In this document: positions 19,868 to 21,028 of the stretch, one piece after another
Layout of the letters: the number at the start of each line of letters is the position of its first letter
Numbering within the stretch: the first letter of the stretch is position 1
Origin: a virus
DNA length: 21,028 nt
Direction: 5' to 3' (one strand)
Virus record (IMG/VR): IMGVR_UViG_3300048582_000008
Coordinates: 1 to 21,028 of that record
Program-made: the position numbers and the translations under genes
The notes under the pieces: generated by a model
The model's database searches: none
What the model was told of the DNA's origin: nothing
Seen by the model: only the letters and a program-made list of their open reading frames with translations

Positions 19868-20177
19868 CTGTAATCCTAGCAATCTTGCGTTTACGAGACT
19901 CTACTTTATTCTTACGTTCTTTCATGAACTTCTCGGAATCAGAGTCTGAGACGCCTCTACGACGAGTCTCTGCTGTAATAGAAGCCTCTTGTTTTGCCGT
20001 ATTCTTAATTCCATTATTATTGTAGAGTGGAATAGTGGCCTTATCTTTATCTCTAGTGCCAGCTTTAAACTGCTCATTAGCAGTTTTACCAAGCTCTTTG
20101 GCAGAAGTCTTCTTTACTTTAGGCTTAGGCTTGCCCTGAGCAGGAAGTCTGAACTTCTTAGTGGTTTCCTTGGCCAT
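19860..20177 (-). CDS. Basic protein between the terminase genes (105 aa)
   Basis: The 105-residue protein is rich in Lys and Arg throughout and has almost no hydrophobic residues. The N-terminal part (FRLPAQGKPKPKVKKTSAKEL) looks disordered, and the C-terminal part (EKFMKERKNKVESRKRKIARI) is a basic helix. KPKPKV recurs in the 62-aa protein after the large terminase. The ATG overlaps the small-terminase stop as TAATGG, with AAGGA eleven bases upstream, and its own stop overlaps the GTG of the large terminase. Position suggests a DNA-packaging accessory or DNA-binding protein. I recognise no family. Confidence 0.7.
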   Translation of the reverse strand: MAKETTKKFRLPAQGKPKPKVKKTSAKELGKTANEQFKAGTRDKDKATIPLYNNNGIKNTAKQEASITAETRRRGVSDSDSEKFMKERKNKVESRKRKIARITGV

Positions 20178-20686
20178 TATTGAATCAATCCTTGCTCTTT
20201 AAGTCTACGTAGGTCTGATTGTACCGAGGAATCCTTAAGGGCAGCTTCAGCACTATCCGAGATTTGCTTCTTGATCTTCTTACGCTCAGTGGCGTTACCC
20301 ACCTTCCAAGGCTCTTCGATAAGGTATTTAGCAGCAGTGAAGGAGCTTCTACCTTTGTCTTCTACTTCAGCAATAATAGCCTTGAAGGCTTTCTGCTTAC
20401 GCTTGGTGGCTGCAAGGTGTCTCCACTCGGTGATATCCTTCTCGAACCAATTAGCTTCGGAGAGATTCTGCCAGAAGAAGAGGTCTCCGAATACTTCTTC
20501 AGCAAAGGTAACCTCTGAGGGATCATCGACACAATGGGCCATATAGAGCTTAAACAGACAAATCTTACCTTCCTTACCATTCTTGTCTAAGGTAAGTAGA
20601 CCCTCAGGATTCCATTCACAGAAGATGTTCCTGATGAGCATGTTGTTAGATTTGTTGTAAAGATCGTCTTTAGTAAAGATTGGCAT
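20177..20686 (-). CDS. Putative terminase small subunit (169 aa)
   Basis: The start at 20686 gives 169 residues and has AGGA six bases upstream (20693-20696). The frame stays open to a TTG at 20794, but that extension would translate through two promoter sequences and has no ribosome site. The protein has an acidic, aromatic N-terminal half (CLFKLYMAHCVDDPSEVTFAEEVFGDLFFWQNL is part of it, split here only for description) and a basic helical C-terminal half (WRHLAATKRKQKAFKAIIAEV; ATERKKIKKQISDSAEAAL). It is the first gene of the late operon, close to the large terminase, which is where small terminase subunits usually lie. I do not see a textbook helix-turn-helix, so the DNA-recognition role is inferred from context. 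Confidence 0.55.
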   Translation of the reverse strand: MPIFTKDDLYNKSNNMLIRNIFCEWNPEGLLTLDKNGKEGKICLFKLYMAHCVDDPSEVTFAEEVFGDLFFWQNLSEANWFEKDITEWRHLAATKRKQKAFKAIIAEVEDKGRSSFTAAKYLIEEPWKVGNATERKKIKKQISDSAEAALKDSSVQSDLRRLKEQGLIQ

Positions 20687-20716
20687 TGAAGTTCCTAAGT
20701 TGCCCTTACCCATATT

Positions 20717-20745
20717 ATTGTACAGTATTTTAGATGATTTGTCAA
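20717..20745 (-). promoter_or_regulatory. Sigma70-like promoter for the late operon (proximal)
   Basis: On the minus strand there is a perfect -35 box TTGACA (20740-20745), a 17-base spacer and a -10 box TACAAT (20717-20722). Transcription should start near 20710, giving a leader of about 24 bases before the small-terminase ATG. The spacing and near-consensus boxes make it the best promoter in the window. It implies that host RNA polymerase can transcribe the late genes. Confidence 0.75.
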
Positions 20746-20765
20746 GAGAAATCGACATAAAATAT

Positions 20766-20794
20766 TTTATAGTGTACCTCTTGAAATTAGACAA
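20766..20794 (-). promoter_or_regulatory. Second, weaker sigma70-like promoter (distal)
   Basis: Also on the minus strand: TTGTCT (20789-20794; four of six consensus bases), a 17-base spacer and TATAAA (20766-20771; five of six). It lies about 49 bases upstream of the proximal promoter, in tandem. The match is weaker and the surroundings are AT-rich, so chance is possible. Confidence 0.45.
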
Positions 20795-20844
20795 AAGAAT
20801 ACTATATATACTATAAGGTATACTTTAAGGTAGCTATAGACATA

Positions 20845-20868
20845 GTTATATAACTTAAGATATATAAC
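20845..20868. repeat. 24-bp near-perfect palindrome
   Basis: Arms GTTATATA and TATATAAC are exactly complementary and flank ACTTAAGA, whose CTTAAG core is itself palindromic; only one base pair in the 24 mismatches. It lies about 50 bases upstream of the distal promoter's -35 box, a possible site for a dimeric regulator. Confidence 0.7.
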
Positions 20869-20877
20869 CTAAGTATA

Positions 20878-20953
20878 CTTAATGTACACCACAGTGATAG
20901 CTACGTAGTACTACGTAGTACTCTAAGGTATAGCACTGTGTATATACATTAAG
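20878..20953. repeat. Imperfect inverted repeat (about 23-bp arms) around a palindromic core
   Basis: The left arm (20878-20900, CTTAATGTACACCACAGTG...) matches the reverse complement of the right arm (20930-20953, CTTAATGTATATACACAGTG...). The shared blocks are CTTAATGTA and CACAGTG, with a one-base indel and two or three mismatches. The intervening 29 bases include an 18-bp perfect palindrome. The right arm is part of a direct repeat that recurs immediately downstream. Confidence 0.75.
20901..20918. repeat. 18-bp perfect palindrome built from two CTACGTAGTA units
   Basis: CTACGTAGTACTACGTAG reads the same on both strands. It is made by two tandem 10-base units (20901-20910 and 20911-20920), each with a TACGTA core, so there are two overlapping symmetry centres about ten bases, one helical turn, apart. 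This is a strong candidate for cooperative protein binding. Confidence 0.85.
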
Positions 20954-20957
20954 GGGC
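20927..20957. repeat. Direct repeat copy 1
   Basis: GGTATAGC, A, CTGTGTATA, TACATTA and AGGGGC form the copy. It matches the copy at 20963-20991 at nearly every position apart from a two-base TA indel and a few substitutions. A further, inverted relative lies at 20878-20900. Confidence 0.8.
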
Positions 20958-20962
20958 TTTGG

Positions 20963-20991
20963 GGTATAGCGCTGTGTATACATAGAGGGGC
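20963..20991. repeat. Direct repeat copy 2
   Basis: GGTATAGC, G, CTGTGTATA, CATAG and AGGGGC form the copy, starting 36 bases after copy 1. The fixed order TATAGC / CTGTGTATA / AGGGGC suggests a repeated binding site or a phage-specific promoter pointing rightward, out of the window. Confidence 0.8.
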
Positions 20992-21028
20992 AATCTTGCA
21001 CTATGGTATTTTTTCTTAGAAAATGACG

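Follow-up and report, generated by a model that had tools for sequence, protein, structure and literature searches.

The palindrome-rich cluster at positions 20795-21028 is, on balance, probably a T7-like right-end terminal region, whose motif array and central dyad would be used in concatemer processing or packaging. The window, meaning the whole stretch of DNA analysed here, is an entire virus record of 21,028 bases that ends at position 21028, so that the cluster occupies its extreme right. The position and the motif of the cluster come from comparison, and the cutting or packaging function is one that we infer. A sequence-only reading of the window had offered three options for this locus, namely a replication origin, a transcription switch, or a packaging site recognized by the small terminase. 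Packaging or a genome terminus is favoured here, because the cluster abuts a predicted terminal-repeat boundary and shares its motif with the T7 and T3 ends; the small-terminase part of that option holds only weakly.

The minus strand carries every major gene of the window, and the gene set comprises a putative small terminase subunit (TerS), a small gene, TerL, portal, scaffold, capsid, tail proteins, and internal virion proteins. The portal shares 62-64% identity and TerL 66-71% identity with those of phages ICBM1, ICBM2, CRP-4, CRP-5, SIO1, and P12053L, and the late gene order from TerL onwards is identical in ICBM2 and the window. Judged by this relatedness and gene order, the window represents part of the genome of a Zobellviridae-like (Cobavirinae-like) podovirus. 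At the DNA level, no matches of the window to named phages were found, either close or remote. The nearest near-complete genome, designated G003, is a contig of 48.2 kb whose ends overlap by 127 bp, and is therefore circular as assembled. Its cluster, at ~44,990-45,200, is flanked by a leftward early module and a rightward late module, with a promoter close to the sigma-70 consensus and a putative small-terminase gene downstream of it. At the early/late junction of another sequence, L108 (PQ867845), a perfect 97-nt inverted repeat was observed, which may be real or possibly an assembly artefact.

A palindrome and repeat cluster had been claimed at 20795-21028 and was found there. Perfect palindromes of at least 6 bp cover 48% of this stretch, whereas other equal-size stretches of the window average 5% and reach at most 22%, in agreement with the claim that nothing else in the 21 kb looks like it. 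Dinucleotide shuffles of the cluster were covered to 22 +/- 7%, and 0 of 500 reached 48%. Perfect palindromes of at least 10 bp number five against 0.98 expected, a count equalled in 5 of 500 shuffles. Since shuffles also score high, AT-rich composition accounts for part, not all, of the palindrome excess. The earlier suggestion of an undescribed control element stands insofar as the cluster sequence itself matched nothing in the phage record collection, and falls short insofar as a comparable array occurs at the T7 ends.

The individual parts of the cluster, none of which is assigned a strand, were located as follows. The 24-bp near-perfect palindrome is GTTATATAACTTAAGATATATAAC (20845-20868), with 11 of 12 pairs matching, and the repeated GTATAC element is present in three copies in the cluster and two in the remaining window. 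The inverted repeat described with arms of about 23 bp does span 20878-20953, with arms broken by a few mismatches. The 18-bp perfect palindrome placed at its centre is present (CTACGTAGTACTACGTAG, 20901-20918), and an overlapping 16-bp perfect palindrome (20907-20922) lies nearer the exact centre; together they occupy 20901-20922 in the dyad loop. Two imperfect direct repeats of GGTATAGCRCTGTGTATA (20927-20980) were also recovered, with copies GGTATAGCACTGTGTATA (20927-20944) and GGTATAGCGCTGTGTATA (20963-20980) that are 94% identical across 18 nt; the length of 29-31 bp originally given for them requires gaps.

Palindromic motifs of the CTTAAG/GTATAC type (ATACCTTAAGGTAT family) form an array over 20795-20990, as delimited by matrix matches and palindrome cover. 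Motifs were counted in 33 non-redundant relatives over the stretch from the boundary to the late promoter, or over the last 330 bases before TerS in relatives for which no boundary was found. In these relatives CTTAAG was observed 37 times against 6.8 expected, CCTTAAGG 11 times against 0.1, and GTATAC 31 times against 7.3. A palindromic matrix (consensus ATACCTTAAGGTAT) was then trained on 30 relatives, with the window, G003, and L003 left out and four other members of the window's clade kept in the training set; its p values are Poisson values, each per stretch, with several stretches tested. Applied to window positions 20758-21028, this held-out matrix found 7 sites against 1.4 expected (p 7e-4), and 0.15% of window stretches of equal size, the cluster itself counted, are as dense. 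The G003 cluster contains 7 sites against 1.5 expected (0.35% of stretches).

The same matrix was applied to the ends of other phages. Sites are dense in the T7 terminal repeat (TR; 7 vs 0.9 expected, p 5e-5), the T3 TR (10 vs 1.2, p 5e-7), and the T3 right unique region (7 vs 1.2, p 3e-4). In T7, the right unique region by itself is borderline (4 vs 1.4, p 0.055 at the lower of the thresholds), the SP6 left end is weakly enriched (5 vs 1.3, p 0.01), and no enrichment was found on the right ends of phiKMV, VpV262, and RIO-1. Of these, VpV262 and RIO-1 belong to the Zobellviridae and have terminal repeats annotated. The strict CCTAAAG sequence is absent from the window's cluster region. Because matrix sites are dense both in the window cluster and at the T7 and T3 ends, the motif class appears to be shared. 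The resemblance of the array to the T7 and T3 ends therefore looks real, yet it is not universal among DTR podoviruses or within Zobellviridae.

The central dyad (20878-20953), recognized by its fold and by compensatory changes, has the arms CTTAATGTA...CACAGTG (20878-20896) and CACTGTG...TACATTAAG (20934-20953). Folded as DNA, it gives z = -3.4; the longest perfect looped stem in the window, taken alone, is not significant (p = 0.35). The core TACTMCGTAG with its flanking arms is kept in all seven sequences compared. Between L006 and L008, which share the core, 3/3 left-arm changes are matched by 3/3 right-arm changes; compensatory changes likewise number 2/2 between L007 and L009 and 1/1 between the window and G003, all of them Watson-Crick. 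Covariation of the palindromes in relatives, proposed as a check in the sequence-only reading, is accordingly seen, for the dyad, in three aligned pairs. That reading had also named absence of the cluster from close relatives with conserved flanks as evidence against it. Among relatives whose sequence extends into the region, however, the six nearest keep a dyad around the common core, with drifting sequence, so the cluster withstands this check. The exact dyad is confined to a small clade.

A shuffle control on the chosen dyad arms gave 0/500 both for cells paired and for the covariation score. These arms had been selected for complementarity, so arms were also searched freely in the flanks. 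In this free search each genome's own pairing had p 0.002-0.08, and own versus cross pairing was weak (p = 0.05). Not all of the wider relatives have such a stem: long stems at p <= 0.06 occurred in 12 of 33 against ~2 expected. Since one arm may template the other, compensatory change supports a DNA structure or dyad and is not proof of selection. Quasi-palindrome correction can yield such changes without selection, and the exact sequences turn over quickly between clades, as would be expected if the cluster were a neutral by-product in which AT-rich quasi-palindromes are maintained by templated mutation, arm copied from arm, with no selected role. Such a by-product is very improbable, given that palindrome cover exceeds that of shuffles of equal dinucleotide content (0/500) and that the motif is enriched at one position across the 33 non-redundant relatives. 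The dyad also folds well as RNA as well as DNA, which would suit a leader or antisense RNA hairpin. This interpretation is scarcely credible, since the dyad lies upstream of the late transcript and outside it, no Rfam covariance model matched at E up to 1, and the counted arm pairs in the seven sequences are all Watson-Crick, with no G-U pair.

The genome end was predicted from related phages with DTRs. As determined by PacBio sequencing, the DTRs of ICBM1-3 measure 159-173 bp and share a conserved 5' end rich in GC (PMC6775973), and those annotated in the GenBank records of the Lentibacter phages ICBM1 and ICBM2 are 172 and 159 bp long. The annotated DTRs of ICBM1 and ICBM2 fall in the divergent early/late intergenic region, as does the cluster. 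Their late-side edge consists, in one orientation, of a G-rich block and then an AT-rich motif (AAAGATTTTCTAATAG in ICBM2), and the AT motif homologue starts 7-9 nt off the annotated DTR edge. In the window, the homologous boundary motif CGTCATTTTCTAAGAAAAAATACC constitutes the last 24 bases (21005-21028, minus strand). The AT motif was also found in G003, L003, L006, L007, and L008, and it is paired with the G-rich block in G003, L006, L007, and L008. By homology, the DTR boundary is predicted ~5-7 nt past the window's end, so the cluster would be the non-repeated DNA immediately inward of the right genome end. The window dyad lies ~125 bp from this predicted boundary; in T7, a 19-nt inverted repeat is located 170-210 bp ahead of the TR. 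Matches to the boundary-motif pattern in viral contigs outside the clade were rejected, as they occur without the G-rich block and look unrelated.

On the early side, G003, L006, L007, and L008 carry the element CATARAYCAAAGGTWTA at a distance of 163-170 bp from the AT motif, and a different palindrome, GTGTTAYARTRTAACA, sits 165-168 bp from it in ICBM1 and L227. A distance of 163-170 bp between two conserved elements is close to the ICBM DTR length and supports a DTR of ~165 bp, as predicted for the window's phage. Elements of the CATARAYCAAAGGTWTA type were observed on the early side of the predicted DTR at ~44745-44761 in G003, and also in L006, L007, L008, L217, and L219; the palindrome GTGTTAYARTRTAACA is conserved near the early terminus edge in ICBM1, ICBM2, L221, L227, and L086. 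Additionally, contigs L210, L242, L272, L274, and L284 start at nearly one place, 31-34 nt before the AT motif. These starts were set aside as a sign of a physical end, because four of the five lie visibly at a G-run and may be assembly breaks.

The cluster had been described as lying upstream of the late promoters, and this position is correct: a near-consensus sigma-70 promoter, TTGACA-17-TACAAT, matches 11/12 consensus positions at 20717-20745 on the minus strand. In 24 of the 33 non-redundant relatives, a TTGA[CT] match occurs no more than 170 nt from where TerS starts, and most of these matches, not all, have a -10-like hexamer after them. Just upstream of the -35, two TGTCKAWTT-type direct repeats (20749-20757 and 20784-20793, minus strand) form a candidate regulator site, and they are the only sites of this type in the 21-kb window. 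A TGTCGATT- or GTCGATT-type sequence also precedes the -35 in L003, L006, L007, L008, L223, and L229. Lying between the array and the -35, the TGTCGATTT repeats are a candidate for the late promoter's own regulatory element.

This arrangement bears on the main rival explanation, a transcription switch in which the palindromes would be operators silencing or activating the late sigma-70 promoter, and maybe early promoters too. The array stops just upstream of a near-consensus promoter that would have to be controlled, arrays of palindromic motifs typify dimeric regulators, and an early HTH protein is annotated in ICBM1 and ICBM2. We regard a switch as possible, if not favoured: the motif is dense at the T7 and T3 ends too, where phage RNA polymerase reads the late genes; the dyad arms vary in sequence yet keep pairing, unlike fixed operators; and a distinct conserved TGTCGATTT element is present at the -35. 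Furthermore, the window and G003 regions contain no CtrA sites (TTAA-N7-TTAA). Over the 33 relatives, CtrA sites number 5 against 2.0 expected, which is no clear enrichment and does not identify the promoter as CtrA-controlled, and CcrM sites show no clear enrichment among relatives, with none in the window region.

A replication origin, in which the AT-rich palindromes would be origin or initiator sites, is unlikely. The region is AT-rich (35% GC in 20501-21000), and the cumulative GC-skew minimum of G003 falls at 45,393, ~400 bp or less from the cluster. The GC-skew check suggested in the sequence-only reading, when run on G003, therefore places a minimum near the cluster, but one confounded by divergent transcription; because the skew turn coincides with that transcription, it is not independent support for an origin. 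DnaA boxes number 2 against 0.9 expected, without clear enrichment, and none lies in the window region. The primary origin of T7 is internal, not terminal, which also counts against an origin here.

The first late gene (20177-20686, minus strand), an open reading frame two genes upstream of TerL, encodes a putative small terminase subunit of 169 aa assigned by family matches to PHROG 8035. All 23 aligned members of the family match phrog_8035 (unknown function), and 2 of the 23 also match phrog_4102, annotated as 'terminase small subunit', with a best E of 4.7e-4. A fold search against the PDB returned nothing significant, with Sf6 TerS at rank 7 (E = 3.4). These matches hint weakly that the gene beside the cluster is a small terminase. 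Its homologues in ICBM2 (39714-40241) and ICBM1 (39249-39740), with 33 and 32% identity, are annotated as 'hypothetical protein' and adjoin the mapped terminus. In L008, a tRNA-Met (CAT) gene at 1034-1112 separates the late promoter from the TerS gene.

If the cluster is a terminal region, genomes in the replicating concatemer would be joined through a DTR of ~165 bp, with the cluster directly on the late-gene side. The array could then provide recognition DNA at the concatemer junction for terminase (the putative TerS of the neighbouring gene) or another maturation protein, and the dyad would act as DNA in concatemer cutting or DTR duplication. In T7, a palindrome ~190 bp from the terminal repeat has a proposed role in concatemer cutting or repeat duplication. 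More speculatively, and with considerable doubt on our part, the covarying dyad of Zobellviridae might form a hairpin or cruciform in the DNA and so drive duplication of the terminal repeat or cutting of the concatemer. Hairpin-based end processing, as proposed for T7, would then be general and fast-evolving among DTR podoviruses, alongside a short-repeat code that their genome ends share. To our knowledge, terminal-repeat duplication and concatemer-junction recognition are poorly resolved in DTR phages. A motif common to the ends of T7/T3 and of a distant marine family, together with a covarying dyad, would supply testable sequences for end processing, and motif and dyad combined would offer a means of predicting genome ends in metagenomic phages.

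Among known systems, the cobaviruses ICBM1 and ICBM2 (PMC6775973) share with the window the divergent early/late junction, the G-rich block, the AT boundary motif, and a TerS-family gene adjoining the terminus, whereas their array sequence differs from that of the window. The main text of PMC6775973 describes the DTRs and their GC-rich 5' end, and does not contain 'palindrom', 'promoter', or 'intergenic'. The cos and pac sites bound by small terminases likewise have repeated subsites beside terminase genes, and the window array would be a candidate counterpart. At the T7 genome ends, CCTAAAG-type short repeats in and beside the terminal repeat are a known feature. The window differs from T7 and T3 in its palindromic CCTTAAGG/GTATAC consensus, as opposed to the CCTAAAG of T7, with its array examined on the late side only; its array is flanked by the TerS candidate gene and a late sigma-70 promoter, and a phage RNA polymerase promoter was not identified in the window. 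It resembles T7 and T3 in having an array at the corresponding place relative to the terminal repeat, a predicted one in the window, and in a motif class that appears to be shared according to a matrix with neither T7 nor T3 in its training set; with T7 it further shares an inverted repeat near the terminal repeat (at 170-210 bp in T7), represented in the window by the dyad.
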